From Hexactinellida sp. DTS-2022 (Eukaryota > Porifera > Hexactinellida): a stretch of 64,000 bases of DNA. Both the position numbers and the translations under genes were made by a program. Under the pieces are notes generated by a model. The model had not been told where the DNA came from, ran no database searches, and was given only the letters and a program-made list of their open reading frames with translations. Below, in pieces: positions 9,220 to 40,608 of this stretch (positions are counted from its first letter, which is position 1; the number at the start of each line of letters is the position of its first letter). Where the stretch lies: positions 4,588,001-4,652,000 of the forward strand of contig JAPNXP010000009.1 of NCBI GenBank assembly GCA_028753945.1, read 5' to 3'.

Positions 9220-9263
9220 CATAGCCCACTATTCGCAGGCCTTACAGTAAACTCCACGGATTA
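9220..9263 (+). mobile_element. Solo P-type terminal repeat
   Basis: CATAGCCCACTATTCGCAGG followed by CCTTACAGTAAACTCCACGG matches the P-B terminus at 20448 with a few changes. There is no transposase beside it. It is directly followed by R1 sequence, so the rest of that P element was lost or replaced. Confidence 0.6.
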
Positions 9264-9775
9264 AATAGAAGTCATATTTTAAAAAAAATCAAAAATTGCA
9301 GCCTGTGCCGACGCATGTTCCTTTGGTGACACTATATTTTGGTGGTGGTTTATTGATAGTGCCTCCAAAGGAACATGCTGTCGGCACAGGCTGCAATTTT
9401 GGATTTTTTATCCGCCATGTCACCATCACTATGAAGGTGTTAAATTATTTCAAAAGGTGTTTCAGAAGGCATCGACCCTTAGAGTGGTGGAAGTTTCCAT
9501 TTAGTTCACTTCATTTTAGAGATATTCAAGTTTGAGTAGAATATAATAGCTGATGACTCAGTATTTTTTACGTGAGTGTTGGCTCATCACCCAACATCAA
9601 CTAACCCATTTTAAATATCGTATTAACAAATTGGAAAAACACATTTTTTTGACGATGTCATCATCACCTCAAGGTGTCAAGACTCATTTGTAGAGGTGTT
9701 ACGTGGCATAAGGATCAATTGATAAATTTGAAATTTGTTCTATCTTATTTGATTTCTGAGATTTATGATATTTAA
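9264..9775 (+). mobile_element. R1 interspersed repeat, copy D
   Basis: A hairpin (9288-9404) followed by the right part of R1 in the same orientation and order as copy A, ending near TTTGTTCTATCTTA. Confidence 0.65.
9288..9404. repeat. R1 hairpin, copy 4
   Basis: Same orientation as copy 1. It is nearly identical to it in both arms. Confidence 0.85.
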
Positions 9776-10084
9776 TTAATTAGTATAAATAATTATAAAT
9801 ATTATTTATAATATAGCACCAATATCAATGTCAACTTACAATTATTAAGTTAAATTATTTTGTCATAAATAATTAATTAATTAATTTGGTTATCAAATTT
9901 CAATTCCGCACTCTCGATAACCCCTAATGAACAAATTGGAAGCATCTATATAAGTAATATACTGACTGAATTAATTATAATTAATTACGTCAGTATATTA
10001 ACAGTGCAATAATATTCTCGCAGAAGTAAATATAATCACATAATCTGTCGTTCTTATGAAATATATAATCATTTTTTTCAATTG

Positions 10085-10330
10085 GAAAATAGAAGCCTAC
10101 TCGATCTCACAAGTTGAATCAATATAATAATAGCAAGTTGAAACAATAGAATTAGATTAACACTTTCAATTGAACTGAAGTGTTAGTAAACAAAGGAAAC
10201 TTGCAACTCAATTGTGGCACAAACAAAACCCAATTTAAAAATTCGTGCACTGTCAAAAGGTGTAGAATTTAATTCTCTATCGAATGCATATAAATTGAAT
10301 ATTCGCGCACTATTTATTGTTCCTTTTTAG
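10085..10330 (+). mobile_element. R1 fragment (middle part)
   Basis: Matches copy A at 385-690: AATAGAAGCC, CAAGTTGAATCAATATAAT, AACTGAAGTGTTAGTAAAC and TCGAATGCATATAAATTGAA occur in the same order. Confidence 0.6.
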
Positions 10331-11147
10331 TGTGCTTCTTCTAGTAAAAACGTTATAGTAGGGTCCTACTATAGTTTTATACTATAAGTGCACACTATTG
10401 AATTTACCTCTGTCGGACTTCCCGCTGGCCGGCCGGCCGGCCGTACGCGATGGCCTGACTAAACCATTGGTGATGGAGATTTAAAATTTTGACAGGAGAT
10501 TTAGAATTTCCTGGAAATGATCACCTCGAAGCCTGATTTCTCAATTTCGCTTTTGTTCGTCAGTTATATCGAAATTTGTATTCTGGTCCAGTGACTCTTT
10601 AATAATTCGAATTAGTTATTGAAAATATAGAGGTTGTATTCTCCTAAGGATGTTCTTTTTATATATCAATTAAAATTATTAGGTCGCTAATCAATTCTAC
10701 GTTTTATTATCGATTATTTACATAGATCAGCCATCTTCTCCATATTGTAATTACTCTATACTATAGTATACTGAATATAATAGAACATATTACATAAGCC
10801 TACATAAGATAATGACTGTTATTGATTGGTTTGTAAGTGAATATGTGTTTCATACAAGTGCAATTAAAACACTTGGAAGTTGGAATATTTTACAGGTTGA
10901 TGATGATGTCAATTCTATTTTTCAAAATAGTAACGTAAATACTAGCACGTATTCCTAATTTCTATTTGTAATAATTAATCTTTAATTAATTTAATTAAAC
11001 ATTTGAAGTCTTCACAATTCAAACATTAATTAAATTGTATTACACTAAGATGAAATGTAATTTGAATATTGAATTCTAGTTAAATTAAACATTGGGGAAG
11101 TGTAATCAGAAGGAGCACACTCCCATCCCGTCTGTGAGGGGTTTTTT
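10331..11147. other. Gene-free stretch with short palindromes
   Basis: No ORF is supported. It contains a short inverted repeat (GTGTGC at 10329 against GCACAC near 10390), a GGCC run at 10427-10443 and an ATTAATTTAATTAA tract. Confidence 0.4.
10427..10443. repeat. (GGCC)4 run
   Basis: Four consecutive GGCC units in otherwise AT-rich DNA. Confidence 0.8.
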
Positions 11148-11290
11148 AACATAAAATAGGTGTAAAATGTGTCCAAAAACGTGATAAAAAATCGTGACCC
11201 CAGGTGCACATCTGTAACCCATGAGACACCTGTCCTGAAAATTTCAGTTCTTAGTTAATAAAACTCTGTTCTGTGGAGAATCTACGGACC
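11148..11290 (+). mobile_element. R1 fragment
   Basis: Matches copy A at 700-840: AGGTGTAAAATGTGTCC, AAAATCGTGACCCCAGG, TAACCCATGAGACACC and AATAAAACTCTGTTCTGTGG. Confidence 0.6.
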
Positions 11291-11328
11291 AATAATAATA
11301 ATAATATACCAAAGCACTAAGATTAGAA

Positions 11329-11361
11329 CTGGGCCACTACACTATAGTATAGTCGGCACAG
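11329..11361. repeat. 33-bp inverted marker, right copy
   Basis: Reverse complement of 6548-6580 with one mismatch. The pair brackets 4.8 kb that contain most R1 copies. Confidence 0.7.
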
Positions 11362-11552
11362 TAATAATATATAGCTGAGTGCCAGGTAACTAGTTCTAGA
11401 TTTAACATTATTCTACTGATCACAATCGGTATTCTACAATTAATAAAAGGAATTAAACATGGTATACCAATAATCAACAAATATTTTCGCCACACAGAGC
11501 CAATACACTACAAATATACTACTTAACACGGATCGTTAATTCACATATTATT

Positions 11553-12497
11553 GAACTTTAAACTTCTTTAATTTACGGATATCTTCTCGTGAAGCTACTT
11601 GGGAGTTAAAATTATTAACTAAGTTTTCGATAAGCCAATCAAACTAATTTCCGTAACACTTCCCAACCATCAGAATTGCAAAGCAAGCATCTGTTACGCC
11701 ATGTTTCGCTCGAGGTATCTTCAACGGTTCTAATTGACAATTCTATTAGAATCGCGCGAAGTTTTTCGTTGACTAACTGTTTCCAGATATCCACATCCTG
11801 TTTAAATGTTATTATAGTCCGCCAAAGAGTGATGATAGAATCTAAGACTGGATCTGATGGCCACTTCAAAGAACCTCTGTCTAGATTTCAATAAGCATGT
11901 GTTTTATAGATTCCTTGGATAGAATAACAGATCTCTGTTAGCGGTTAGGAAATTAAACAGAGTCGGCAATTCTGAAACTTCTGATTCTTGAAAAATTGAT
12001 GGACACAATAACCAGCAATAATAGCCAAAGATTGGATGGTCTCATTGTCAAAGATGACAGTAAAATACATCTTGTAACTTTGGATTTAGGTCGGGGCTTC
12101 GTCTGAAGTGAATGATTTGAAAAAAAAAATTAAATTATATTCTTTACAAGCTGTTGTGAAAATAGCTTCAGGATTCTAGAGACTTTGAGTCGGCGTTCTG
12201 TATCGAGAATCTGACTAAATGAAACATGATAATTTGAGCCAGACATCATTCTATACAACCCGAAGTGGTGTTCTAGCGGATCTGTTTGTAAGAAATAAGT
12301 AAGTACGTAGGAAATCTACATTGAGAAGCTAAATGGTTGACTAGAATCGGTAGCGCTTCACAAGTATGTTTGAAGGAAGTGAAAGTCTAGTATACTCAAT
12401 TTGCCATGTTTTCTGGGTAATGATTATCAGGCAGTGATCCAGTTAACAATGCAATTAATGAGCTCAAATCTAGAATCATTAAAGACTAGTTATTTGG
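11553..12497 (-). pseudogene. P-E transposase, C-terminal part
   Basis: P-element/THAP9-type transposase remains in several minus-strand frames. Seen in order from high to low coordinate: the DPLEHHFGLYRMMSGS-type block near 12230-12290, then a block ending in LKWPSDPVLDSIITLW (about 11830-11869), a TWRNRCLLCNSDGWEVL zinc-like motif, and VNNFNS near 11610. The same blocks occur in P-A, P-B and P-C. The reading frame continues at 15787 once the MULE insertion is taken out. Frameshifts and stops make it inactive. No CATAGCC terminus was found at this 3-prime side. Confidence 0.85.
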
Positions 12498-12502
12498 GTC
12501 TA

Positions 12503-12595
12503 GCACATTTGTGTACCTCACACTTGTGTACATGACATTTGCGTACAAAGTTTGTCATTCACATTTGCGTACATCTCACTTGCGTACAATACATT
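12503..12595 (+). repeat. MULE-1 left terminal array
   Basis: Five or six degenerate units of a 13-16 bp motif around ACATTTGCGTAC. The right end has the reverse complement. Confidence 0.8.
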
Positions 12596-12780
12596 ATTAT
12601 TTGTAGACTATTCAAATTGATTTATCTAATTAATTTAAAAACAGGAATGAAAATTTAATGGGTATAACAGAAAATAACAAGCATAATAATTATAGGAAAT
12701 AATTTATTAAAATATGGTTCTAAAAGCAAGCCCTCTTAAGAACACTAATACAGGCCTGTGATAAAATGAATTTACTAAGG

Positions 12781-13163
12781 TTATAATTGCTTTTTTATTA
12801 TCAATCGATTTTTTCGTTTTTTTGGGGTCTTACCATGGGTAAATTTAAATTGTTTTAACTCGACATTACCCTGTTCTGTTTTAAGGCAACGTATAAATTT
12901 CCAAACTGTAGGGTGGTGACAACCACATGTGCTTAGAAATCCACGATGCCATGCTTCTAATAAGTTTGTACTTCTCGGCAATCCTTGTGGACAAGATTAA
13001 AATTGTTCCAAAGGGATATAGGAAAGAGAGGAGGATTCCTTTCCCCATTCAAGCTTAGAAGGCCTATGTAACTTTCCTCAAAATATCTGCAGAGAGGAGA
13101 TGCATTTTCAGGGAAAATCATGACCAGTTGTTGGAAAGACCAGCTGACTTGCTCTGGTGGTAC
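12781..13163 (-). pseudogene. MULE-1 transposase, C-terminal part
   Basis: Two frames continue the transposase past the inserted hAT element. The first (13163 down to about 12957) runs PEQVSWSFQQL...; the second (12981-12781) has STNLLEAWHRGFLSTCGCHH followed by PTVWKFI and a basic tail. The E of NLLEAWH is the expected third acidic residue of the MULE DDE domain. A frameshift lies near 12970. Together with 14652-15600 it makes one gene. Confidence 0.8.
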
Positions 13164-13319
13164 CAGAGGCGGATTAACCAAGGGGCACGGGGGGGGCACG
13201 TGCCCCAGGGCCCCAAAGTTCAGGGGCCCCCACTCAGGGACGTTGCCAGGATTTTTCATCTAGGAGGGGCATAGAAATTGTCAGGGGGGGCAAACATCTA
13301 TATTATTAAATCTCGATTG

Positions 13320-13345
13320 TTGTGTGTGTGTGTGTGTGCGTGTGT
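13320..13345. repeat. (GT)n microsatellite
   Basis: A GT run with one CG interruption. Confidence 0.8.
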
Positions 13346-13443
13346 TTTTGTTTGTGTGTTGGTCCGGATGTAGTATTAAAGTGATGGGGGAATATAAACC
13401 GCATTTATATATGAGATAGAAATTAAGTTCCAAATGTTATAAT

Positions 13444-13855
13444 AGGTAAACAAGTATGCTGATTTCGAATTTCGCATTTATACATTTCTAACATTAATAT
13501 TTGTTGTTGTTGTTTACACAAAATAGGTAAACAAATTAATGAAAATTCAAAATCAACCTAGAAGTTAGCTTTCAACTGGTATTAAGGTAAAAAAGTATGC
13601 TCAACACGAATTTTCGCAATTATAAATTTCTAACATGAATATTTGTTGTTGTTGATTACACAAAATAAGTAAACAAATTAATGAAAATTCAAAATCAACC
13701 TAGAAGTTAGCTTTCAACTGGTATTAAGGTAAACAAGTATGCTGAACACGAATTTCGCGTTTATAAATTCTAATATTAATATTTGTTGTTGTTGTTGATT
13801 ACACAAAATAAGTAAACAAATTAATGAAAATTCAAAATTAACCTAGAAGTTAGCT
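13444..13855. repeat. Minisatellite, about 142-bp unit, 3 copies
   Basis: The unit beginning AAGGTAAACAAGTATGCT recurs at about 13443, 13583 and 13726. Each copy contains ATTTGTTGTTGTTG and AACCTAGAAGTTAGCT. Confidence 0.85.
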
Positions 13856-13887
13856 AAAGTATGGAAAATGGTAGTTAAGGGTGTATA

Positions 13888-14073
13888 CAGTGGAGCCTCC
13901 CATAACGGACACTCCAAATAGCGGACAACCTCTAAATAACGGACAACCCTCGTGGCACGGATTTATTTATTTAGGATATGTCTAATAGAATATCAACCTC
14001 TAAATAGCGGACAACCTCTAAATAACGGACAACGGTTCCGGTCCAAAGGTGTCCGTTGTTCAGAGGTTCTCTG
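13888..14073. mobile_element. Tigger-type MITE, copy 1 (186 bp)
   Basis: TA-flanked, starts CAGTGGAGCCTCCC and ends with GAGGTTCTCTG. It contains repeated CTAAATARCGGACAACC words. A near-identical copy lies at 28105-28291. Confidence 0.85.
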
Positions 14074-14119
14074 TATATCAACAACAACTATTACTAACTA
14101 TATAATCAATGGTTCAGTG

Positions 14120-14198
14120 AGGAAGGCCGCGTAGCGGCTGTCAACTTGAGGTGCGTAGCACCGATCAGTCGCAAAGCGACCGAGACCGAAGGGCTCGT

Positions 14199-14226
<28 letters not shown>
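14120..14226 (-). repeat. CGCTTTGCGAC-word repeat with (TA)n tail
   Basis: GC-rich words (GCCGCGTAGCGGC, GGTGCGTAGCACC, CAGTCGCAAAGCGACC) followed by a TA run at 14198-14224. A 20-base part of its complement recurs near 54965. It looks like the tail of an unclassified interspersed repeat. Confidence 0.5.
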
Positions 14227-14230
<4 letters not shown>

Positions 14231-14338
14231 GGATATTTTGACAAGCAAATGTTTCAATAATTGACGAGAAGTCGAGATCCCTAAGAATGTGGGTCTCGAT
14301 TGACATTATTGAGAGGAAAAGTGGAAATAGTTATAGTA

Positions 14339-14498
14339 CAGTAAACTTTCGTTCATACGAACACCAGGGGACTGTCAGAATTAGTTCGCAATAACCGAAA
14401 TTCGTATTAATTAACCAAAGTCATTGGTATTCATTTGAATAGGCTGGTGAATTTAGAATGTCTGCCTTATCCATGTTCGTATTAACGAGAGTCTACAG
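14339..14498. mobile_element. TA-flanked MITE (160 bp)
   Basis: Inverted ends CAGTAAACTTTCGTTCATAC and GTATTAACGAGAGTCTACAG with TA on both sides, consistent with a Tc1/mariner-pogo superfamily MITE. Confidence 0.75.
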
Positions 14499-14651
14499 TA
14501 TTACAATAATAAGGACCGTTGAACATCACGATTCTGTGGGACATATGACCGAAATTTTTTAAATTTCTAGCAATAATAAGCCTATCGAGGAAAATGGGGC
14601 CTCACATTCACAACTTGCCCCAGGGCCCCAGCCCTCCTTGATCCGCCCCTG

Positions 14652-15600
14652 GGTGGTACGAATGCTAGAGCATGTAGCATACGCATGGTTAATGCAAATT
14701 CCGGATCAGTATGGTATTCTGACTGCAGCCCAAGAGACTGAAGTTTCCTAAAAACTGACTGTGAGAGATGAAAAAGCACCCTTTCACTAGGGTTAATGTC
14801 CAAATTGAATTGAAAGATTTGATTGCTGCTTGCTCAAAGTCGACAAAAAGATAGTGCGGTTGAGAATTAGGGCATGATTCACGGATTATTGTCCACATTT
14901 TAGTATATGTTGAGATCGATTTGTTTGGCAGTAGCGCGTATACACATGGTAACAGATGACCATTTTCAAAAGGATTGGGTCCTCCAACGAGACAATGGAT
15001 TGTGTATAGTTGGAAAAAGAGAGTAGGGACTGTTTTGAATGTCCCATCGGCTAGCCAGATGCTTGACATGGACAAGAATTCTATGTTCTCCTTGGTTGCA
15101 AATATCACTATCCTGTGCGGGCCAATACCAGAGTCGTAGAATAGAAAGTTCCTGTTAGAAAATGTCTTGAGGTTTTCAGCGTCTAATTGAAGTTCTTCAA
15201 GAGATGCTGGATTAGGCGGAGCAATACGTTGCCTCTTATACATCGTCTTCAGGGCGTGTTGATTTTGAAGCAGAGACTTCGCAGGTTCAGACAATACACT
15301 GGTCATCTCTCCTATCGCAACGTGAGGATTGTCGTTTGTTTCTCTTGCTCGCTTCCTCATTAAATCTTTCATGACTGTTACCTCATCTTTACCGTATTCC
15401 TGTGGATGAGAATGTTCCCCAGACTTCTTGATGATTGTCTCATTAACGGAGTGTATTCTTGCTTTACAACCTCTTACGTCACACCTCCATTCCTTTTTCG
15501 AAGCCCCCGATGGAAACTATATAAGTACCCGTCGTGGGATAATTTGTCAGTACCCTTGGAGGATTTGACAATGCTGAAGGTTGTATCAATATTAGTAGCC
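14652..15600 (-). pseudogene. MULE-1 transposase, N-terminal and catalytic part
   Basis: Minus strand. A FLYWCH zinc finger is spread over two frames near 15600-15395 (LSHDGYLYSFHRG, then CDVRGCKARIHS and GEHSHPQE, giving the C-C-H-H ligands). The 227-aa frame from 15372 follows with the MULE domain: IWLADGTFKTVP (first Asp), YLFVDFEQAAIKSF (second Asp) and KGCFF. A one-base shift near 14770 moves the frame to a 73-aa piece with HLSQSVFRKLQSLGL, which runs into the hAT insertion. MULE transposases cut and join at their terminal repeats. This copy is inactive. Confidence 0.88.
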
Positions 15601-15709
15601 ATTTTTTTATTGTTCGAAATTGGTGCTTAGCTAATTCCTTTTATATATTAGTTTGTATGCTTTTCACAGCTTACTGAACTAGTTAGTATACGTATATTGT
15701 ATATTTCTT

Positions 15710-15786
15710 TTGTACGCAACTGTGAATGACAAACATTGTACGCAAATGTAATGTAAGCAAATGTGATGTACGCAAATGTGCGGCTT
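15710..15786 (-). repeat. MULE-1 right terminal array
   Basis: Four units of GTACGCAAATGTGAT type, inverted relative to the array at 12503-12595. Confidence 0.8.
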
Positions 15787-16450
15787 CTAGTTGTTTGGAA
15801 TATTCGTGATTCAGACGTTTGTCTTTGTTCGGCCGATTAACGATAAACAATTTCCAGAACATAACGATGGTATCGATGAATTCAGCGGTATGGTTTTTGA
15901 AACGTTCGAGGCGAGTTTCTTTGCAAATCTTCAGGGCTACGCGGGTAGAGTCGTCGAAAATGCGGAGAGCTAAATAACATTTTGGCGCTCTAACTTCGAA
16001 GGCCAACATACTTTGGCTGTGAGACGCGGTGCAAGTTTTGCAATGCTGACGAATATCAGTGAAGGAGGATGTCTGTAGGTTTGGAGGATATCGAGTGTAG
16101 TTTGGCAAAAAATCTTCAAGCTTTGGGTAGATAATAGTCAGATTAGAATTTTTCAATTTAGCAAATTGTTACGAATTGTCTTTACAATATGCACAAAATA
16201 AAACATAAGAATGATTGATTTGTTGCACAAAGAGGATGAGGGATCAATGGTTGCAATGTTTTCTGATCAGAAGAAAATAACTTTAAAAAATTTACATTTA
16301 GCGGATAGTTATCTGTGCATAATACCTGAACTGAAAGTCCACAACCTTCAATGTCAGCAATTACCTGCACAATGATGGGATAAATATCTCTACCACTTGT
16401 TGTAGAGAGTGGGATTATATAAGAAGTTAAAATGCATTCCTGTAGTACAT
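15787..16450 (-). pseudogene. P-E transposase, middle part
   Basis: Continuation of the P-E gene on the other side of MULE-1. Two frames: one at 16430-16182 with VIADIEGCGL, CTDNYPLNVNFLKLFSS and PHP, the block just before the FDxVHxLK motif; and one of 157 aa ending in NKDKRLNHEYSK, aligned to the region before the SRPL block of the other P copies (for example IDTIVMFWKLF against LLFLWKIFNFN in P-B). The gene then jumps to 20020 across the hAT-like element at 16451-20019. Confidence 0.82.
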
Positions 16451-16622
16451 CAGGGATGGATCCAGCACAAAATATCTTGGGGGTGCAATGCACAGGGTTG
16501 GGCCTTAGAATTGTGGACGCCGTGGAGACACCCGCGGGTCAACTGTGTCAGTTTTTGGACGTTATTTTTTTAAGAACCCCATTTTAGGATTCATCTTTCA
16601 AAAAATTTAAAATATATTTAAT

Positions 16623-19600
16623 CATAGCCTACTCTATATAAGGCATACCATCAAATGTACCATGGATGAAGTAGTGTACGATGAGAAAGTGATAAACACA
16701 GTTCAATGTTTTCAACTTCATTTAGAAATGAATCTGTTATAATAAATAATTCTAGTAAATTAATAGATTTTCTCTATTGAGTCTTTATTGCTCACTTAAC
16801 AACAATGATAAGAATACATAAAGAATAATGTGGGTCAAATAACAATGCTAATAACAATAATAATAATAGAAGAGTAGCCTTCTGGTGTATTTCATTAATG
16901 TGAGAACTTCAGTTTTCGCTTTTCTATTCATTTAGATGCAACAGCGGAGTTATAATTTTTAACCTTGTTAGCTTTAGGATAGTCAAAATAGAGACACCAC
17001 AAGAAATGCAACTCAATTTAGCAATCGCATCAGTCTCTTCTAAGAATATCAAGGTTACTTTCACAATAATTTTTCTGGATGATCCTTCCCTCAATATCGC
17101 CAACAAGTTTTCTTTGCTTTCAATTGCAATTAACGTCTTCCATAAAGTTACTATAAATTTGAGGATAAACTCAGATGGATACTTTAGGCCACCACGGTCA
17201 GTTAATTGCAGAAGCCTGAAATCGGGTTGTGAATCTTCATCAAAGATAAAGTCTCTGTCAATGGTCAAAAGATCAATGCAAACATGACATGGCTGAGTTT
17301 TAAAAATATATTTATGTACTCCATAACCAGCAATAAAAGTTAATGACTGAAGAGTCTGTAAACTACATTCAATGGAAGTTAGATCATCAATTAATCCCAG
17401 ACTAGTTGGACATCGATTTCATCGCCATTATTCGTATCAAAGGATGAGTATGAATCAATAAATGTCTGAATTGAATATGAGCCACAATCTTGTTGTGAAG
17501 CAAAAATCTTTAATATGTTAGATAACTTGAGGCGGCGTTAAGTTTCAAGGATTTGAAGATACGAGATATGATAGTTTGAACCTGACATCATACGATATAG
17601 GCCAAAGTGATGTTCCAATGGATCTGTCTGTAAAAGGGATGTCAAAAGATAGTTAAATCCACAAAATCCAGTTAAATGGTTAGTTATCTGAGGCAATACA
17701 GTATAAGCGTGTTTAAAACTGGTAAACATTTGTTTACTTAACTTTCCTACATTTCCTGGCAAGGCCAGCCAAGTCTCTAACCGAATAACAACACAAGCTA
17801 AGAATGGAAATCGTTCGTCCTGGTATGTTAGAGGTCTTGAGATATCATCATTCAAACGTTTACGTTAAGTGGGGTATTTATGTTGAAAAGCTTCCGAATT
17901 AGAAGAAGCATTTCAACAATGTCTTGTGTATTGTTTCGGTCTTCTTGGTTACGGAGTTCATTCAGTAACTTCAGAGCTGCAACAGTTAATTCGTTGAATA
18001 CTTTCAAAACAAGTTTCATATTTTTGCGCTCAATAGCAGAAGGATAACAAGCTTTGATAGTCAAGCTAGGTGCTAACTTAGCTAAGGATTCTTTCTCTAA
18101 ATTATAGAGGAGACGCACATCACTAAAAGATGCAGAGTAAACTTGAACAGGATACACACAGTAATCCAGCTTAATGTTCTGAAAGTTGGGAAAGTGAAAG
18201 GTTTCCGAATATCTTTCTGATTCAACCAGTTGTTTCGAATACTTTTCAAAATGTGCACAAAGTCAAAAGTAACATAGAGGTTTCTTTTATTATCAGAAGG
18301 GTGTGGTACACTAGTCTCTAACTGTTTAGTTGGAGAAAATAACTTGAATAAGTTGTCTTTTAAAGGGTAATTGTCGGTAGAAATAATCTGTACTTTCAAA
18401 CCGCAAGATTCGATATCCAAAATACAAGACTTAATTATAGGAAAGGTATTCAGCAGATATAGATGCGCAAGGTATCAAACGAGAAATACAGGACCATTTT
18501 TTGTGTAAACTAGAAACCATGATAGCAAATACAGTTCTTGTGGGGTATTCAGGGGATAAGTTTGGACCAAATATTTTCCCACCCTTATATGAGATATCAG
18601 ACTTAACGTGTATCTCATCCATCTGAATAATTACATTCTTCTCTTGAGAACTAAAAGAAGAAGTTACCTGGCTAAGGTAAGTACAAGAGTCGTTTTTCCA
18701 GCCCAAAAGAAGAGTACAACTTTTCTAGTGTGTGAACATGTGGAAAAGAAATGCATTCTGAACTTTGGAGAAATTGTAACTAGCAGGAGCAACCAGAAGC
18801 GTTTTTATGGCCAGAATTTGTGTAATAATATTATATCTCCTTCTCTTCTTGTAAATACCCACATTCTCTAGTTTGCCAAGAATAAATTGTAATCTTGGCA
18901 AATCGGAACAATTGGACTCTGTTTCATCACTATCTAATAGATTACATATGTCCTCCTCAATATGTTCTTTTGCTTTAGAGATATGGTGAGGATGTTTCTT
19001 CTGAGGGGAGAGCTAAGTTTCAGAGTAATCTCTGTAAACAGCGTTTCAATTTGTCGGATATCAGTGATAGAGATAAGTGAGAGAGAAATGGACTCCCCAT
19101 ATATATATCCGTTCACAGATAAAAAAGAATTTATTTCAAGAGAAACATCTGCTACAATATTATGATTTTCTATCACATGCAAAAAAATCTCACACAATTA
19201 TCTGTTTGAATCCAAACTAACCAGTCAGTTGGGATTGTTATCAAAGCTAACTTATCTCGTATTTCTTGTATACAACCAACACGAAACTTCTCCATTTCTG
19301 TGTTCTCTGATCTCAAGCTGAGATTAGTTGCTTGGTTCAATAAATGCATGTCTTAACTCAGGTGGACTATCTGGAAGTTTAAAAACTGGGACGCGCTCTT
19401 CTGGGGTATAATTACACCTCAACCAGGGGCAGAATAGTTCGGCATTGAGAAAAATTAAATATCTAACTATTAAAAAGAAACGAAGTCAAATATAGCACTA
19501 GGAAGTGCTTACAATATCGTTGGAAGGAGAATTGTATTAATTAATTTCTAAAAATTAACAAAAATCAGTACAAGTTGATCAAACTATTTTTAAAATATTT

Positions 19601-19716
19601 ATAACTGTACAGAGATAAATGTAAATAACTATGGGTCAATAATAATATCGTACACTACTTCATCCTTGGTGCAAAATATCAGCTTTGATGGTAGGCCTTA
19701 TATAGAGTAGGCTATG
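16623..19716 (-). mobile_element. P-type element, copy P-A
   Basis: Complete at both ends: CATAGCCTACTCTATATAAG at the left and its inverted match ending GTAGGCTATG at the right. Further inverted words (CTTCATCC, GTGTACGAT) extend the TIR to about 80 bp. The flanks show an exact 7-bp duplication ATTTAAT (16616-16622 and 19717-19723). 3.1 kb, with the transposase on the minus strand. Apart from deletions it is nearly identical to P-C at 34.2-43.7 kb. Confidence 0.93.
16924..19460 (-). pseudogene. P-A transposase (THAP9/P-type), broken
   Basis: Minus strand. Starts at a degenerate THAP (CPWLRCNYTP near 19430) whose second half is deleted: RHA is joined directly to the NQATNLSL block. Then follow NVIIQMDEIHVKSDISYKGG with a catalytic Asp (about 18640-18570), DIESCGLKVQIISTDNYPL (18410), TFDFVHILKSIRNNWLNQ (18270), a region ending FNINTPLNV (17860), DPLEHHFGLYRMMSGS (17590) and DRGGLKYPSEF (17200). 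Frameshifts near 18150 and 17855 split the central ORFs of 107, 101 and 105 aa. Known P transposases bind DNA through THAP, use GTP and cut at 31-bp-type ends. This copy cannot make the protein. Confidence 0.9.
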
Positions 19717-20019
19717 ATTTAATATACTTCAAAGAAATCTATACTAATTAATATTCCAAATACCACTTTCAGTCAGAGAGAACTCAGTATATATTTTTGT
19801 TCAGCTATTTAGTTCTGAATTTGGAGGATTCCTGATATTTGATATACAGCGTTGCCAAAAGTATTCACAGAAGAGCAGGGAAGAGAACTCTGATATATTT
19901 CTCTCAACCAATCTCGGAAATTGTGCCAGTCCCTTGATATCATTTTTGGATTATAATATCATATTCTTGGGAAGGGGGGTTTACAACCCCCCTGAACCCC
20001 CCCCGGTGGATCCATCCCG

Positions 20020-20447
20020 AGGTACATTGATTTCAATACATGCCAATGACAATGTAAACTTCTTGATAAATCTAACTTGAATATTCCATCAACATAATGT
20101 ATTTTGTTCGACTTTGATACTGTAATTCTGAAACCACAAAAATTGCTATTTTTTAGAGTTGTTGTAGCATCTCAGACACATAACTCTTGATCTCGAATAT
20201 TTCTCACTTCAATAAATTGGAATTCATGTATGCTGAAAATGATGTCATAGATATCGAGTCAATCTGAGGTGATCGAAAAATGCTCTATTTCCACTTGTTT
20301 GCTCACTGTAGATGAAACAGCTCCAGTGTGTAATTTGGGATGACCTCGAGGTATTTCTTGAAATGTGTCATCAAGATTCGGTACTTTATATGCACGTTCT
20401 ATGTCTTCATCCCGGAAATGATTTACACAAACGAATATAGATTTAAG
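20020..20447 (-). pseudogene. P-E transposase, THAP second half
   Basis: A minus-strand frame from 20447 downwards reads SIFVCVNHFRDEDIERAYKV and then a PRGHPKL linker: the C-x2-HF half of a C2CH THAP zinc finger and its AVPTIF-type tail. Its first half lies at 25261-25410, beyond P-B. The coding blocks expected next (DEIHVK) are absent, so P-E had an internal deletion of its own. Confidence 0.85.
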
Positions 20448-20657
20448 CATAGCCTACTATACATAAGGCCTCACAGTAACCTGTGGATTTTGGACCAGGG
20501 ATGTCGGAGTCAACCTAACTATTTTGTTACAAAATATATCGATATATGGTTTTAATAGGTTAATGTAGGATAACGTATCTAGATAGTGAAGGCACAAAAC
20601 TACTACTTTAATCTACTTTTTGAAATTTGAATTACTGAAATTTTAGTCAACCCATAA

Positions 20658-21035
20658 ATGTTAATTATAACATATGTATATATTTGTACTATACGTACAA
20701 TTCAAATTAGACAATTTCACCAATTCATTTCAGATTTAGCATTACATTCAAGCAAGTATACGTATTATTTCCTCACGATTACAATTCCCAGCCGCTGTTC
20801 TGCTCCCGGATGTAGAAGCAATTATGATAATGCCGAGCGAATCCCAGTGTTCAAGATGCCACACAAACCAGACGAACTTCGACACGCTTGGATTCGAGCA
20901 CTCCACAGAGATGATATTCATGAACTCAAGACTGTGCATGTTTGTTCCTTGCATTTCAAGGAAGAAGAAATTGAACTCACCTACAAGGTACCGAATGGCG
21001 ATGGGACATATCGAGAGTACCACGAAAGTACATAA
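20658..21035 (+). pseudogene. P-B transposase, THAP domain
   Basis: A 125-aa frame containing a complete THAP zinc finger from about residue 45: SRCSAPGCRSNYDN, then ERIPVFKMP, RHAWIRALHRDD and VHVCSLHF (C2CH ligands Cys, Cys, Cys, His). The usual start (MPxxCSAPGC in P-C) is changed here: ATT stands where ATG is expected near 20804, so the upstream ATG at 20658 is probably not original. A frameshift near 21015 separates it from the next block (EGAVPSILPGCPNYY). THAP domains recognise the element ends. Confidence 0.88.
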
Positions 21036-21420
21036 AGCTTAAAGAAGGAGCTGTACCATCCATTCTACCTGGATGCCCGAATTATTATTCTACACAAACT
21101 ACCAACAAACGTAGTCGACCTTCTATTGAATCTAAAGATGAAAAACTCTTCTCACAAGCATTACATCTTAGCCTGAAATCGAATATTGATGAGAATGAGA
21201 GGTTTATATTGAACAGTTTCCAGGATTGCAAGATAAGTTACCAATTATTTGTATTTCTAATGTCATATCATATTGGTATCCCAATCCGAATTCTTTGATT
21301 TTTATGCGCCCTCATTTAGATAATAACAAAATTCTAGTTAATATATATTTGACAGTAGAAATTGATTGATCCATAAGAGCATATCGTAATGGCCAAATTT
21401 TCCCGCTTTCACGAATTTTT

Positions 21421-24080
21421 GTGAGCGACACACGTCATCTTGAAACTTTATTAGATGAAATTGCATTTAATTCTGATAGTTTTGAAACGTCTCTTGTCTG
21501 TACTTCTAATGATTCTCATATTGCATTTGCTGGAATTCATATACAACAAGTTATCTATAATATCAGTGATAAAAAGTCAGATGAAGAGTTCCGCAATTCT
21601 CCGGAAAGTCAGAACTTCAATTTATTCATTGCCAACTTCAAAACAGTCTAATTCCGAAAAACAGGCGACGTTAAAATATATTAACACAATCCCTCAAAAC
21701 ACATCTAATTTCACCTTCTTGTTATAAATATCTCCTGAGTATGTCTTGCTATCTCTTCCTCACTTCAATACTTTAGAAAAATTGTATTCTTCTTTTGGAC
21801 TTGATAATGATTTTTCACATTTCTTAGACAACTACGCAATATTTTCTCCACAGCAAAAGCATGTAATCATTCAGATGGATGAAATACATGTGAAGTCCGA
21901 CATTTCTTACAAAGGAGGTAAGATACTTGATTCCAATCTTGTTGCCGATGACCCTACGGAAACTGTTTTTACTATTATGGTGTCCAGTTTGTGTAAGAAA
22001 TGGTCATGTGTTATCCGTTCACTTCCATGTGCTTCTGTCTCAGCTGAGAAGTTGTTTGACACGATTAAATCTTGTATTTGTGATGTTGAGGATTGTGGCC
22101 TACAGGGCCGTGTCACTAATACAAACTGACCAGGTCAAACCTGGGCAGAATTTTTCCAGACCAGGTTCTGACCAGGTTCTCACTAACTTGCTGAGTTTCA
22201 AAACAATTATTAAGAAATATTTAAAGTTTAAACTAGTATAATTTTCTATCCTAAACTCAAATAAAGGAAACCATGATGATATTAATTAATAAGTTAATAA
22301 ACCCGTAGTTGCCATTGGGGTCAAAGGTATGAATCGAAAAATCCCATTTTCACTTTCATTTTCAATTAGAAGTGAATTAACTTTTAGTTTCACTTCAACA
22401 TTCCTGGGCAGCTACGAGTTAAGAGTTTAAGAAGTTAATAATATTTAAAAAAATTAACAATGGGTAGCAATCATGCTTACTCTAGTTAGGTTTCACCTGG
22501 GCAGGTATCAATAGGCTCGCACGGCCCTGGGCCTATTTGTCCAAATTATTTCTACTGACAATTATCCTCTTAATGTGAAACTCTTCTAATGTTTTCCCCT
22601 ACTGGTAAACTGGAGACGCGATTACCACATCCTTGTGGTATAGACAGGAGTCTGTTTCTTACTTTTGACTTCGTGCATATTTTAAAAACTATTCGTAATA
22701 ATTGGCTGAATCAGCAATCTGATGGTAAACTCTTTTCTTATCCTGATTTAGATTGCATCTCCATTGATCGATCCACCAATCCTTTGAAAGTTTGTCATGC
22801 TTCTTTTCGTGATATTCGAATGCTATATATGTCAGAGAGGGATAGCTTTGCAAAACTAGCTCCACGTTTGACCCTGAAGTATTGTTATCCATCTAGCCTC
22901 GAACGTCAAAATGTTAAACTTGTTTTAAAGGTAGTTCATGAATCCACTATTGCAGCTCTGGGTATACAAAATGAACAACGCAGCCCAGCATTCAAATCCC
23001 ATACCTCAGAATTTGTTCAGATTCTATTATTTCTTTGGAAAATCTTTAATTTTAATATGCCATATCAACATGTTCGTTTAAATGATTCTTTATCTCGTCC
23101 TTTGATTTCTAATGATGACCGCTTTATTTTTCTACGCGCATTGTTTACTGGTTAGATACTTGGCAGCCATTGCCTGAGAAAGGAGGAAAATTGAGCAAGC
23201 AGACATTTACAAGCTTGAGACATGCTTGTCTAGCTAGTATTAGCTCAAATTACAAACTTCTTAACTGAAAACTGCGGCTATTCATTTCTCTTAACATCAT
23301 TCCGGCAGACAGATCCACTCGAACACCATTTCGGTTTATATCGTATGATGTCAGGTTCCAACTATCACGTTTATTATCTTCAGATCTTTGAATCGGAGCG
23401 TCGTCTTAAAGTTTCCAGCATCTTAAACTTGTTTTCCAGTCAGACTGTCTCTAGCACATCTTCTTTACAAGAGTTCATAGAATAATTCTCTTCTGTGGAC
23501 AGCGTAGAATCTCACTGCGAGATTGATTTAGAGCCATTTTTGATCGCAATATCAGACCTATCTATCATTGAGTGTAGTATCCAGGTCCTCCAGTCCTTAG
23601 CATTTATTACGGGCTTTTCAACACACCAATACTTGAAGCGTAGCAAGTCATGTAATATATGGCGAGATTTCTTAACTATTGATAAAGATCTTATAACGAT
23701 CTATCTATATCTCAATTTAAGCTTTTAGACCTCTCTGATCGCGGGTCCTTGAAATACCCTTCTGAGATCGTATTAGAATCTATTGTTATCGTTTGGAAGA
23801 TTTTTATTATCATAAAGAATAATAATGAACTGATGGCGAAGTTATTGGAGGGACCATCTAGGAAAATTCCTGCCGAGCTCTCAACTAATTCTGTTTTGGA
23901 TTGTAATATCTGTGATTAATGGAATAATAGCTGTTTGTTCTGTTCAATTGATGGCTGACACATCCTTAAGAAACTTGTATTTGTAGTTGTTAACTGTTTT
24001 CTAGCAAATATAGTTACAAATTATAACTCAATGGTTATTTCTAAGGGTATGGACGAACGATAACTGAAAAATTTAGTAAG
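21421..24080 (+). pseudogene. P-B transposase, catalytic part
   Basis: Several plus-strand frames in family order. 21421-21651: DTRHLETLLDEIAF. 21746-22102: HVIIQMDEIHVKSDISYKGG (catalytic Asp) up to DVEDCGL, where a hAT MITE interrupts. 22530-23155: STDNYPL, then LTFDFVHILKTIRNNWLNQ and a long helical region to NDSLSRPLISNDDRF. About 23290-23365: TDPLEHHFGLYRMMSGS. 23495-23728: DLSIIECSIQVLQSLAFITG. 23725-24080: LSDRGSLKYPSEIVLES and a final NYNS motif. Frameshifts and stops are spread throughout. P-B is clearly diverged from P-A and P-C. Confidence 0.88.
22103..22529. mobile_element. hAT-like MITE in P-B (427 bp)
   Basis: Ends CAGGGCCGTG and CACGGCCCTG are perfect 10-bp inverted repeats. 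The P-B codons for CGL are repeated on both sides (GTGGCCTA left, a degraded GGCCTA right), as expected from an 8-bp duplication. Confidence 0.8.
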
Positions 24081-24225
24081 TAATATTGATATAATTTTGA
24101 TATTGGTCTGTTCGTATAGTATTTCTCTCGCTGTATTGTCTTTATGGGGGATATTGTAAGATTTCATCTGGAGGACTGGCTTAATATCTGGAGGACATGC
24201 TTAATTTCTGGAGGACAGGATTGTT
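24081..24225. other. P-B 3-prime region
   Basis: Non-coding. Contains three tandem copies of TCTGGAGGAC at 24170-24217. Confidence 0.45.
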
Positions 24226-24920
24226 CATAGGCGGCGCAAGCACTGCGAACACTTCGAGCATGCTCCCACCTATATTTTATCAGAAAATTTGGCCTAACTA
24301 TTTTGAGGGCATCAACTGCATTTATAACATCTGTGATCATAATATTCAGATATTCTATTTGAGTTAAATAGATACGTACACTACGCTTAATAGAGCAACT
24401 AGTTAATCGGATCAACCTGACTAATCGGGTCACTTGGCTAGAAATAGAAACATGTAAAGAGTGTTGAATTACTCCTTTTAATCGAACCAACAGCTTTATT
24501 CCGCTTAATTGGCTCAAAATGGCCTGAACCCGACTCCCGAATGTGACCCTATCCTTCGGGTGTACTGTAAATTCTGCAATTACTATATTAATAGTCACTA
24601 GTGCAGCTATTATTTGAGCCTATTTTTTGTTTACAAATGATTTTGGCACATTAGAAAGTTTTAAATGAATTTATCGCATAGAAGCGTTACAGGTTTGCGA
24701 ATTTCTAATTGTATTGATCATGAATATATAAGTAATTATTTATCCTTTTTAGAACTCTTACTATGTGTTTCGTGTATTACAAAATCTGTATTACAAAATT
24801 TGAAATATATTGCATTGACTTATTAAAAGAAAATTAATTTAAATTACTAAGTATTTAAAGAAAATTTGGGCCTAAATGAGGAGTGCTCGCACCAACATCG
24901 AAATGCATCCGCCACCACTG
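24226..24920. mobile_element. hAT-like element in P-B (695 bp)
   Basis: Left end CATAGGCGGCGCAAGCAC and right end rich in complementary words (GTGCTCGCACC, CCGCCACCACTG). Duplication GGATTGTT (24218-24225) and GGATTGTA (24921-24928), 7 of 8. The middle (24360-24560) carries TTAATCGG/TTAATTGG words of Tigger style, probably a further nested MITE. Confidence 0.7.
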
Positions 24921-25260
24921 GGATTGTAATTTGGAGGGCTACTTTGATTTTCACTAAAGAACCTTTGGACACTTGCTACTGATTAATACTATATATACGT
25001 ATATATATTCACACATTACCATATCACTTGCATGTATTTTATTGCTGTTAGGAGTCAATATTATATATCCTAGATTTGAATTTCTATATAGATTCTATGC
25101 GAAATGAACGAAACAAAATTATACTGTCTAGAATACGTTATTATACCCTACATTAACCTACTAAAACCATATATCTATATATTTTGTAACAAAATAGTTA
25201 GGTCGACTCCGAGTCCAAAATCCACAAGTTAATGTGAGGCCTTATGTATAGTAGGCTATG

Positions 25261-25410
25261 GTTTAAAGTTAGTTACGTTCTCTCGGTGAAGATCTTTTAT
25301 CCACTCTTGCCGTAATTCAGGGGCTTGGAAGGAAGTATATACACTGGAACATAAGAATCTCTAAATGGTAATAATTATTCGTACAATTCGCTGCAGAACA
25401 CTTGTTCGGT
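25261..25410 (-). pseudogene. P-E transposase, THAP first half
   Basis: Minus strand: KCSAANCTNNYYHLE (first two Cys ligands), then a YFLPSPELRQEWIKDLHREN-type helix and VTNFK, which joins to SIFVCVNHF at 20447 once P-B is removed. The expected start Met is replaced (codons T-K-P-N-K-C). The 5-prime end of P-E and its terminal repeat were not found beyond this point. Confidence 0.8.
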
Positions 25411-25831
25411 TTAGTCAAGCAGCTAGCTATAAAAGAATGGGTCAAATTGGCTAATTCAAAAAACCACGTGCTTCCTCAATCCAGGCAGAATATATCTCCA
25501 ATTAGAGAATTTATCTAAAGTGGAGAAATACACCTTACACTGGCTTGAACAGAAGATCAAATTTACAAACAAGTAACACCGACCATGATGCTAAATATTT
25601 TATACGAAGACGTATCACGCTATATTCATCGGGATACTATAATGACCAATTTTCAGGGATGGAAAGAAATGAGAACTTACCTTACATTTCCTGGGAATCT
25701 TTGACTTCTCTTTCTTTCTTCCATGTTTGACTCAGGCTGAGTGATATAGCTGAGAAAACAATTCATCTTCCGCTCAGTCGAGATAACTGTGCACGTGATA
25801 AATTGAGAATAGTAGTCCGAGGGGAATTCCA
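25411..25831 (+). pseudogene. PGKKDYV-family gene, possible first exon
   Basis: Plus-strand fragments before a clear donor at GGAATTCCAG|GTAAAC (25831/25832). The reverse-strand relative at 33.6 kb has the same PPGEFQ ending before GTCAAC. Coding is broken by stops; the 61-aa frame at 25545-25730 is one remnant. It probably belongs with the exons at 26677-29140. No domain was recognised. Confidence 0.35.
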
Positions 25832-26676
25832 GGTAAACTCAACCAGTCATTTCACCAACTTTCTCGGATTTACCTGTTACTTCGTTAGTTAGTAGACAAT
25901 GGTTTGTCAATTAATTTGTGCAAGTTACAAATAATTCGGTCAATTGGTTCAAAAGCTATGACCTTACAAAATTTTGAAATTTCGTCATTGAATCCGATTT
26001 TTGAAAGGTTTTTCAAACTACCTCCCTAATTCAAACTATTGTATAATGGTGATTTTATTACCTATTTGCAACAAGAACATCCAACTTGATACTTTAAAAG
26101 GCGTATATTCCAATGAGCGTATAATTGATTTGATATAAACTCATATTCCACCTCAAAACTGAAACCGGAAGTGATTTCGGAACTATGACATAGCATTCGG
26201 GGAAATTTTGGGAACTAAATTTTTAAATCTTTATATACTAGCTTTCACTTTATTTTCAGCATGTAGAAAGTTTCTTTTACTTTCCATGTTTTCCCTTAGT
26301 GATATGAACATTTATCAGACATTGACCACTAAATTTCAAAACTGAAAATTAAAATAACTTTAATTTTTGGAATTTGTTTATATATTTCGGTGCATTTTCT
26401 GTTCAATCGAAGTATTTCCAGTCCAATCTCTATTTTAACTCAGTGTTAAATAATTATACAAATGTTATCTTTCAAATTATGATAAATCATGTTTAAACTA
26501 ACCTCAATTTACCTTAGTTTCAGTTGGTTGCTTTTGAATTTATTAAATTGCTTTATTGATAAATGGTACTAATTGCTTCTATTATAAATATAAACAGTAA
26601 ACTGATTTTTGAAAACATTTCTCAACTATTATATTTCGTGAGTAATTGAACTATTTGATTATTGATGTCATTACAG
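25832..26676 (+). other. Probable GT-AG intron (845 bp)
   Basis: Starts GTAAAC and ends TCATTACAG, directly before the coding frame SCSIGKVNESACHI. Its sequence at 25832-26290 has an inverted relative at 32220-33620, so intron and exons were duplicated together. Confidence 0.5.
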
Positions 26677-28104
26677 TCTTGTTCAATCGGAAAAGTTAAT
26701 GAGTCTGCTTGTCACATAACAGTGCATACACATGGAAAAATTGGAATTTTATCTATTGTTGAAATTGCTCATGAAAACATTGAGTTATTAGTGTGGAGAA
26801 CAGGAATTCGAAAAAATTGCTTGAAAACAGTTTGTCTTCATCACCTAAACAAGATTTAGACAAGTTCACTACACTAAATCCATTTTGTTGTGATCCATTT
26901 GGACATCATGCTGAGAAGAAAAATTACAAAGGTAGTCAATTAATATCCAATCTGAGTTTGACAAAATTTATACATATATAATTTCTAGGAACTGTAATAC
27001 AAACTAAAGTAAGGCATTAGAATTTAGATCTATTGTCCTTCGATGTTTCAATTGTCCCTGGATGTAAGTTGTGTTCGCGCTGTTGTTCTTTTCTTTCTGA
27101 TATATTAAACGGAACGAAAGACTATAATGCAATCAGACATCTTTACAACACCAATTCCCCTTCAGAAGGCAAGATTTTATCTACCGTGACAAGTACAGAA
27201 TCCAAAGTTTAGACCTGGCTGTAACTCAGGTATGTTACTTATTCAGTAGTCTGGAATTGATTTTGGTAAACTAAATCTTTCGAATGAACCTTAATTAAGT
27301 AAATTACCTATTAATCCTAAGAATGTTAGAAGATATCATTGACGTCTCCCAAAAGCTCTAGAGATTTCGCCAATCAAAACACATGCCTCGCATATTAGAT
27401 ATAGGCAAATAAAGATTAATGAAAAATTCGCAAAATTGACATAAAAATTCGAGGTTGTTCTTATTCAATTCTTTTTAAGAAAAAATTTATGGATTTAAAT
27501 TTACTGAGCATTATAGCTGGCAAACATAGACGAACATGAAGAATGCTTAAGCGTGACCATTCCAACAAGCATTGCATTAACAGTCCAACATTAGTCTGAA
27601 CAATTTGATTTATTAATGGACTCAATTTGAATGAAAATCACATGTGCAGATAATCGAAGGCAACAGCAGCTTCTTACCTTAGTCCCTCAGTCCTGCTCCC
27701 GTCAAACAATCACTTTTTCGGAATAAGTAATTATCTAGTTCGTGTGTCACGTGAATTATTCAAAAGATCTGGCATTCTTGGAGATGTTGATTGTAAAAAA
27801 GGTAGACTTATTTAAATCAATCGATGGTACTTAATATTAACAAAGGAGTATATGCAATTTTTTTCTAAAATAGGGAAAAAGTTAACTGAAGAAACAATCA
27901 GAGCTGTTGCGCCTTTTTATCAAGACGATGAATTTACACGCCAGATGCCTGGAAAGAAAGATTACGTTGGCATTGCACGTAACGTACATGTTCAGAAAAG
28001 ACTAATCCTGTCTAATATAAGAGAATTATTTGTCGAGTTCAAGATAGCGTACCCTAACTTAAAGGTACAAACTGTTGTTACTTTCCTAATAAATTTGCGT
28101 AATA

Positions 28105-28291
28105 CAGTGGAGCCTCCCATAACGGACACTCCAAATAGCGGACAACCTCTAAATAACGGACAACCCTCGTGGCACGGATTTATTTATTTAGCATATGTCT
28201 AATAGAAAAGCAACCTCTGAATAGCGGACAACCTCTAAATAACGGACAACGGTTCCGGTCCCAAGGTGTCCGTTGTTCAAAGGCTCTACTG
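28105..28291. mobile_element. Tigger-type MITE, copy 2 (187 bp)
   Basis: TA on both sides, begins CAGTGGAGCCTCCC, ends AGGCTCTACTG. Over 90 percent identical by eye to the copy at 13888-14073. Confidence 0.88.
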
Positions 28292-28448
28292 TATTTTAAA
28301 GCATATATATAACTTTCATTAGATTTCATTTTCGAAGTTTTGTGAACTACGCCCAAAGTGGTGCGTACTTGCAGATTCACATGGTACACACTCCGTGTGT
28401 GTTTGTTCCATTTACCAAAACGCCATCCTTCTCGTTGACGCTCTAGAC

Positions 28449-28611
28449 CAGTGTTTTTTTTAAGGCAAATTAGAGGCCCAAAATGGTCTTCTAATTTTTC
28501 TCAATGGGCCTCTAATTTTTAACGTGCTAAGTACTCAATATCATGAAATGTAGAGTGAGGGCCTCTAATTGTTGGTAGGGCCCTCTAAGCAAATCCTTAA
28601 AAAAAACACTG
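28449..28611. mobile_element. hAT-like MITE (163 bp)
   Basis: Inverted ends CAGTGTTTTTTTTAAGG and CCTTAAAAAAAACACTG with an exact 8-bp duplication CTCTAGAC (28441-28448, 28612-28619). The interior repeats GGGCCTCTAATT. Its ends resemble those of the MITE at 58036. Confidence 0.93.
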
Positions 28612-29238
28612 CTCTAGACTACAAAGATCTTATGTCAAAGCTAGTTTGTTCACCTGAATATTCGGAGTGTATGATTCATCGATGTGAAAAATGTCCGGGA
28701 AGCGAGAACCTAGGAAAATAATGGATATTGTGATCTGTGAAAAAGATGAACACGTTTGTGTAAACTATCATTTGATATTTCCTAGAATAGTGACTAAGTA
28801 TATAATTGTCTGTATTTTCTAAATTAATAGGCGTTTATTGAATACAATCAATGGGAAAGCACTGATAAATACACCTTAGAGACATATTCAACCACCTTAA
28901 AACAATACAAAGAAATTCTAATTAATTCAATTAACTAAATTAACATCTCACTCATTTATTTCTCGAGCTGAAACTTCGTATTTAAAAATGCGAAAAGATG
29001 CCCTTGATGACTATTCAGCAATTGTTTTGGTTGATTTTGCGGAGAATTACTCTTTTGTTGTGCAAGACGAAGTCCAAGGATTTCATTGGAATAACCTGCA
29101 AGCGACTTAACAACCAATCGTATTCTACTATCGAGAAAATGGTAAGTAGCATATGAGTAGTAAGTAGTACAATGTGTGATTTGGATATACTTATTTAGTA
29201 AATCACTTTGTATTATATCCGATGATACAGAGCATGAT

Positions 29239-29445
29239 GGGAAAGCGGAATAAGATCGAAACCTGAATTTGGAATAATATCGAAACTGATGTTGGAATAA
29301 GATCGAAAGCTGAAGTTGGAATAAGATCGAAAGGATGTTATGTAGGAATAAGTTCGAAAACCTCGTAAGTTGGAATAAGATCGAAAATATTCTTGAAGTT
29401 GGAATAAGATCGAAAGCATGTTATGTTTGAATAAGATCGAGATGT
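29239..29445 (+). repeat. MULE-2 left terminal array
   Basis: Eight degenerate units around TTGGAATAAGATCGAAA with spacers of 5-20 bp. Confidence 0.9.
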
Positions 29446-29615
29446 CAATTCTTGATTTGTTTGCGTTTGTAATGTTTCTATAGAAGTGAAATTTTAATTT
29501 TATTATTCTTTGGCACTTGGATTTGCAATATGTTTATTATTGAAACATGAACCGGTAGAATAGGTGGATTACAGTGTTATATAAAATAGATTATGTCTGT
29601 ATTTAGTTAAACGAA

Positions 29616-30938: not shown

Positions 30939-31228
30939 ATTTAATCTCGCTAACAATAGGGGCAGAAAACATAAACGTAGCTTTAATTAGTACCGAGAAT
31001 GAACTACAGTCAGTTACAGAAGAAACACACTCATCGGATGACGAAGAAAGCGTGGAAGCTCGATGTTTTATATGTCTACCGGAGAGAACAGAAAATTTTG
31101 CGTTTCTACATCATAATTTTGCTCATGCTGGATTTTGTGAACAATGTGCAAACGAAATACACCAAGCTAATCGTGAATGTCCTATTTGCCGCGGAAAAAT
31201 CGATGGAGTAATGAAGATCTTCCAATAA
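30896..31228 (+). CDS. RING-finger ORF downstream of MULE transposase
   Basis: An open frame of 110 codons in the -1 frame relative to the transposase, overlapping its end by about 43 bp. The first part is acidic (THSSDDEESVEA). Residues from about 31075 on give CFIC, then HNFAHAGFCEQCANEIH and RECPICRGKID before a VMKIFQ end: a RING-type zinc finger as in ubiquitin E3 ligases, with His in place of one usual Cys. No ATG opens this frame before the finger. It could be made by -1 frameshifting (TTT-TTA at 30903-30908 is a partial slip site), by splicing, or be a decayed separate ORF. A similar RING remnant lies in the element at 44566-46045. Confidence 0.75.
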   Translation, partial: NSIFNGTYTTVQYLNLISLTIGAENINVALISTENELQSVTEETHSSDDEESVEARCFICLPERTENFAFLHHNFAHAGFCEQCANEIHQANRECPICRGKIDGVMKIFQ

Positions 31229-31724
31229 TTATAAGCAGATAAAGATTCATTTTTCTTATTATCCCTACTCTCATTATACCTTTTATCATCAATTGTTGAC
31301 CCTTCATTGACTAAATTTATTTTCAGTCATTTATCATTATATAAAACTTTCTTGTTGAGCTTTAAATAGCCCTCTTTTGTCTATAGTTATTTGAAACTAA
31401 ATTGAAAGAAGTTTTAAATGGCCATGAGTCATAGAAAGGGGTAGTTTGAATTGTCGGAAATTGTTCGAAATGCCAATTCGGAAATTGTTCGAAATGCCAA
31501 AATAGGAAATAGTTCGCGCTACACAGGTGCGAACGCTTCGCGTCCGCACTCGGGCCTTCGTCCCTTGAATAGATAACAACTATGCATTTAAAATAACAAA
31601 TATGTATATTATGATATTAAGAACATCATATTTAAACTCAGCACAATCGATTAACATAGACTACCCATTGGAAGCATGCTTCTATGACATTTTTGAAATC
31701 TGATTCCTTTAATTACCAAAACAA
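31229..31724. other. MULE-2 3-prime non-coding region
   Basis: No gene. A short tandem repeat (AATTGTTCGAAATGCCAA, two to three units) lies at 31455-31520, next to a GC-rich word cluster (GCGAACGCTTCGCGTCCGC). Confidence 0.5.
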
Positions 31725-32182: not shown

Positions 32183-32461
32183 ATATCACTAAGGGAATGA
32201 ATACATGGGAAGTAAAAGAAACTTTCTACATTCTGAAAATAAAGTCAAAGCTAGTATATAAAGATTTAAAAATTTAGTTCCCAAAATCTTCCCGAATGCT
32301 ATGTCATCGTTTCCGAAACCACTTCCGGTTTCAGTTTCAGTTTCAGTTTTGAGGTGGAATATGAGTTTATATCAAATCAATTATACGCTCATTGGAATAT
32401 TCGCCTTTTAAAGTATCAAGTTGGATGTTCTTGTTGCAATAGGAAATAAAATCACCATTAT

Positions 32462-40600: not shown

Positions 40601-40608
40601 AATTATAC

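Follow-up and report, generated by a model that had tools for sequence, protein, structure and literature searches.

The question raised here is whether pieces of transposase that lie scattered over one sponge locus derive from a single transposon, and how they came to be separated. The locus is a 64,000-nucleotide stretch (the window) of Hexactinellida sp. DTS-2022, at positions 4,588,001 to 4,652,000 of contig JAPNXP010000009.1 (G000:C18:4588001-4652000) in an assembly of 112.4 Mb and 18 contigs, and the transposon is a P-superfamily element that we refer to as P-E. A first-pass annotation, made from the sequence alone, described a four-level nest of transposons inside one P element, and this stands: at least four levels are supported, and the deepest stack has five. 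We put at roughly 0.93 the probability that one 3.5-kb P-E element decayed here and became the landing ground for later nested insertions, a reading in which we infer the insertion of a repeat, R1, and a subsequent deletion. All loci used for comparison (L-numbers) are other copies within the same genome.

One P element in separated pieces

Four P-E pieces lie on the minus strand, each recognized by its match to uninterrupted copies: 25261-25456 (transposase codons 1-65, the start of the THAP domain), 20310-20447 (codons 64-109, the end of that domain), 15788-16412 (codons 433-651, with the junction read) and 11363-12495 (codons 649-976 and the 3' part), numbered by the 976-codon frame of L010. 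The pieces are colinear with the uninterrupted copies L010, L011, and L012 at 88.6-93.5% DNA identity, and each of the four matches to L010 has an E-value of 2.7e-56 or below. Along L010 the order is 11363-12497, 15787-16417, 970 bp not in the window, 20309-20447, and 25261-25456; L011 and L012 agree with this layout, and L013 and L014 largely do so. The protein coordinates show that the pieces overlap only by target duplications and share one family, and codons 110-432 are absent from the window copy. The annotation had therefore followed one element, albeit with piece limits that are corrected here, and the pieces neither belong to different P families nor otherwise overlap in protein coordinates. 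The two reading frames it had restored across gaps also recur in L011, one as SKQLVFNDSRF (SK|QLVFNDSRF) and the other (NFK|SIFVCVNHF) in agreement with DLKHIFVCVNHF.

The L010 and L011 copies each contain a 976-codon frame that is open from stop to stop. That of L010 has Pfam matches to THAP (1.3e-12), TNP-like_RNaseH_N (9.7e-10) and TNP-like_GBD (2.4e-7), and over residues 320-740 it is homologous to the transposase of the Drosophila P element (PDB 6p5a, E=1.5e-5). At full length, as in L011 with L119, a copy of the family measures about 3.5 kb and has both terminal inverted repeats and a 7-bp target duplication, GACTAGC. P-E thus belongs to the P superfamily, having a THAP domain, a P-type RNase H/GTP-binding transposase and terminal inverted repeats. 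The inverted repeat at the family terminus starts with CATAGCC, and its counterpart in the window, overlooked by the annotation, is the left terminal and subterminal sequence at 9220-9284 (minus strand; 86% over 66 bp to the L010 terminus, E=2e-15). This is the only terminal repeat that the window copy retains: the right end, some 300 bp beyond 25456, gave no significant match in the window, and would have been lost where a second repeat, R2, now abuts P-E at 25456.

Differences between the window copy and L010 are spread nearly evenly over the three codon positions (39, 42, and 50 at 621, 620, and 624 sites), which argues for neutral decay of P-E from the time it ceased to code. Over 3438 bp L010 and L011 share 99.91% identity, and they diverge immediately beyond the left end; since they occupy different sites, P-E has moved recently elsewhere, although the copy in the window is old.

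The third gap and repeat R1

Every gap in P-E had been read as an insertion. This holds at two gaps, which are occupied by the P-superfamily element P-B and by a Mutator-like element (MULE), and fails at the third, which contains R1 and from which 970 bp of P-E (codons 110-432) are missing, so that it is not a clean insertion. R1 is present as a left fragment at 16413-16450, resumes at about 20020, and continues as a right fragment with an intact right end (20022-20309; 39 other matches at 77-86% among the best 40 of 71 candidates scored). Both 20020-20308 and approximately 16413-16450 had been assigned to P-E; we reject 20020-20308 as P-E coding sequence, and both stretches belong to R1.

In L071 and L072, which are 99% identical to each other, 16413-16444 directly adjoins 20022-20309, showing that the outer of two hAT-like elements (16451-20019) is inserted in R1 and not, as had been supposed, in P-E. 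The empty site in L071 reads ATGTACAT, and the window copy is flanked by an imperfect duplication, TAGTACAT/AGGTACAT, which matches at 6/8 positions if one base was lost at the right end of the element. Its only frame of at least 150 codons (16924-17418) is that of P-A, a further P-superfamily element (16623-19716, minus strand) flanked on both sides by the 7-bp duplication ATTTAAT. The placement of P-A inside the outer hAT-like element was correct: the site is empty, as ATTGAAT, in the copy L019. Both hAT-like elements are so named from their ends and the 8-bp length of their duplications, and their membership in hAT is accordingly putative.

The simplest account of this gap, judging from its junctions, is that R1 would have arrived by insertion, followed by a deletion across a 2-bp microhomology in which P-E lost about 970 bp and R1 about 490 bp. 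The R1 right end at 20309 is the family end and meets P-E directly, while the left side is truncated, with the microhomology (GA) at its junction with P-E and family copies extending some 490 bp further. A less probable course of events, though one to be taken seriously, is that P-E suffered an internal deletion and that repair of the gap copied R1 into it as filler. P elements reportedly capture sequence when gaps are filled (PMC8277862), the left junction has the microhomology noted above, and L013 is likewise shorter in this region (309 bp compared to 970). However, filler need not respect the ends of a repeat, and a right end that coincides with the family end is expected of a transposed copy. 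Insertion of R1 followed by deletion consequently remains our preferred account.

Insertions and their empty sites

The deepest stack begins with the MULE (12496-15787, minus strand), whose ends were set from the copy L070 and which is flanked by a 9-bp duplication, TAGTTATTT (12487-12495) and TAGTTGTTT (15788-15796); the corresponding duplication of L070 is ATTATTTAT/ATTATGTAT. A MULE transposase domain (PF10551, E=8.1e-8) lies within 14689-15516, so that both the domain and a duplication of about 9 bp identify the element as a MULE. Its empty site, CTAGTTGTTTGG, is unbroken in all seven P-E copies compared, being identical in six and having one difference in L013. Within the MULE is the inner hAT-like element (13164-14651), flanked by a perfect 8-bp duplication, GGTGGTAC, and with no frame of at least 150 codons. 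Its site is empty in the MULE copies L069 and L070, and the MULE frame restored across it by the annotation (VPP|EQ) fits VQPEL in L069. The ends are those of a family: 12 of 25 other matches stop exactly at 14651 and 20 within 2 bases, and in the three copies complete at both ends the start falls at 13163-13164. At 14331-14506 lies a further pair of inverted repeats with the look of a pogo-type miniature inverted-repeat transposable element (MITE); it is common to L121, L123, and L124, and so moved with the family.

The annotation placed a Tigger MITE directly in this hAT-like element, and a level between the two was missed. An insert at 13237-14223, which holds a tandem-repeat element, Z (13296-14208), is absent from copies of the hAT-like family: the stretch is unmatched in three of the four compared, whose own sequence at this place is different and 122, 116, and 491 bp long, and the fourth, L122, lacks the left end. 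Z is also found without the hAT-like shell in L091-L093. These Z copies lack the Tigger-like MITE (13888-14073), although the exact site cannot be aligned. The MITE has TA on both sides, short inverted repeats and a high copy number (39 other copies at 96-97% among the best 40 of 531 candidates scored), all traits of Tigger/pogo MITEs; from the look of its ends we take it to be of the Tigger type.

P-B (20448-25260, plus strand) is inserted directly in P-E with a 7-bp duplication at 20441-20447 and 25261-25267, as had been claimed. The flanks now read ATTTAAG and GTTTAAA, the empty site is GTTTAAG in 4/4 copies compared (L010-L013), and most family matches that reach the left end start at 20448. 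Eight short stretches were read for the right ends of P-B and P-A, of which only L085 was readable (L081-L084 and L086-L088 gave no readable end), and a PDB search with the P-B frame at 22574-23155 returned no hits. P-B in turn contains a MITE with CAGGGCCGTG ends (22103-22529) and a 6-bp duplication, GGCCTA. This MITE, not noticed earlier, is absent from 4/4 P-B copies that cover the site (L077-L080); a fifth copy, L076, does not cover it, its match ending at 22077.

Also new is the insertion between the P-E left end and the rest of the element. This is X (9285-11362), a repeat found in clusters as well and about 1.28 kb long without its own insert; the flanking P-E sequences are contiguous in L010 to within 2 bp. 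The insert, Y (10324-11147), is about 820 bp long, and a T run leaves the position of its ends uncertain by a few bases. Of its 41 matches outside the window, 38 are relatives of nearly full length at 89-96%. The two parts of X are contiguous, without Y, in all six loci compared (L057, L058, L061, L063, L065, and L066).

At least eleven insertions would thus have followed the arrival of P-E, either directly into it or into earlier inserts: X with Y; P-B with its MITE; R1 with the outer hAT-like element and P-A; and the MULE with the inner hAT-like element, Z, and the Tigger-like MITE. For seven of the eleven (MULE, P-B, the inner hAT-like element, the outer one in R1, P-A, the MITE of P-B and, within the T run, Y) other host copies provide empty sites at the base level, X is resolved to within 2 bp, and for Z and the Tigger-like MITE the evidence is that other host copies lack them. 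It is very improbable that the P-E pieces are fragments of several adjacent P elements, for although the window contains other members of the superfamily (P-A, P-B and relatives at 40606-43434 and 47570-50600), L010-L012 match every one of the pieces at 88.6-93.5% in a single order and strand, with base-level joins at the P-B and MULE sites, and P-A and P-B share only about 33-68% protein identity with the P-E frame. An assembly artefact from collapsed repeats, conceivable in a region so rich in them, is equally hard to credit, given that target duplications at the junctions are as long as the respective superfamily would lead one to expect and that the layers have substitutions of their own.

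Several other elements were observed in the window. The element at 40606-43434 has a frame (42882-43442) whose first residues are those of the P-A frame (16924-17418), and 47570-50600 contains pieces, on both strands, of one or more further P-superfamily elements. R2 (25457-25835 and 33615-33786) apparently surrounds a 7.8-kb element (25821-33614) with inverted ends (94% over 225 bp and 90% over about 264-281 bp). The 443-codon open frame of this element (29607-30938) contains a MULE domain and, slightly below the cut-off, a FLYWCH match. The stretch 1771-3110 contains a Tigger/pogo-type transposase frame; HTH_Tnp_Tc5 and DDE_1 domains lie in 2244-3110, next to a frame at 1771-2277. The 624-codon open frame at 61511-63385 matches DUF4371, which we presume to indicate a relationship to hAT.

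Order of insertion and comparison with known systems

Divergence of each layer was measured from the family majority of the fetched copies; for P-E these were seven (L010 and L012-L017), with L011 left out as a near-duplicate of L010, and the value for Z is unusable as an age. The divergences are 6.6% for X, 6.1% for P-E, 4.3% for the outer hAT-like element, 3.7% for P-B, 2.7% for the MITE, 1.6% for both P-A and Y, and 1.4% for the MULE, a series that agrees with the nesting within error. Nesting gives no order for the MULE and P-B, because both lie directly in P-E. Their divergences (1.4 ± 0.5% and 3.7 ± 0.6%) are about 2.9 standard errors apart, so P-B probably inserted before the MULE, and we reject the reverse order. 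The proposed succession of P-E, then MULE and hAT, then P-A, P-B and the MITEs is partly contradicted, since it places P-B after the MULE. It also does not describe family activity: nesting gives the order of insertion at this place and not the periods in which families were active, and the near-identical copies indicate that the P-E family was also active late.

With empty-site controls for seven of eleven insertions, the nest is a worked example of how a single assembly can yield an order of insertion, part of it dated. The use of nesting to date transposons relative to one another is well established, and TinT, TRANScendence and REANNOTATE, as far as their cited descriptions go, similarly apply it to nested clusters and interruptions; unlike those analyses, ours concerns a single locus, mainly of DNA transposons and repeats, and is checked by empty sites. 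The elements are new members of known superfamilies, the nest is of an ordinary kind in transposon-rich genomes, and the general view of transposon biology is unchanged.

The MULE resembles Mutator-like elements in its transposase domain and 9-bp duplication. It differs in that a related copy (G000:C1:10191042-10193105) has an end made up of numerous tandem units, for the most part spaced at about 41 bp.

P-E is like the Drosophila P element and THAP9 (6p5a) in its THAP domain, RNase H-like core with a GTP-binding insertion, and short terminal inverted repeats, and unlike the Drosophila P element in its single open frame of 976 codons and its 7-bp duplication. The duplication is 7 bp long in each of the five P-superfamily insertions for which both sides are resolved (P-A in the window, ATTTAAT, and on C14, TTTGTGC; P-B in the window, via GTTTAAG; and P-E on C5, GTTGGAC, and at L011 on C2, GACTAGC), the remaining copies having been read on one side only; two random window positions are identical over 7 bp with a frequency of 1.6e-4. 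The source cited gives 8 bp for the Drosophila and zebrafish P elements (PMC7776569), and P-E, P-A, and P-B do not have this length. This separates them from canonical P and not from the P superfamily, because Galileo, a Drosophila member of the same superfamily, has mostly 7-bp duplications, with three 8-bp cases in the account cited (PMC4168063). Galileo, compared here by published description, has long, Foldback-like inverted repeats (PMC3688188), whereas P-E, P-A, and P-B have short ones. The near-identical open P-E copies and the 7-bp duplications in three families may nonetheless help to place Galileo-like elements. We consider it an evenly balanced proposition that three lineages, all making 7-bp duplications, had overlapping periods of mobility and landed in each other's remains, that P-E is perhaps still mobile, and that 7-bp duplication, as in Galileo, may extend widely through the P superfamily instead of being peculiar to Drosophila.
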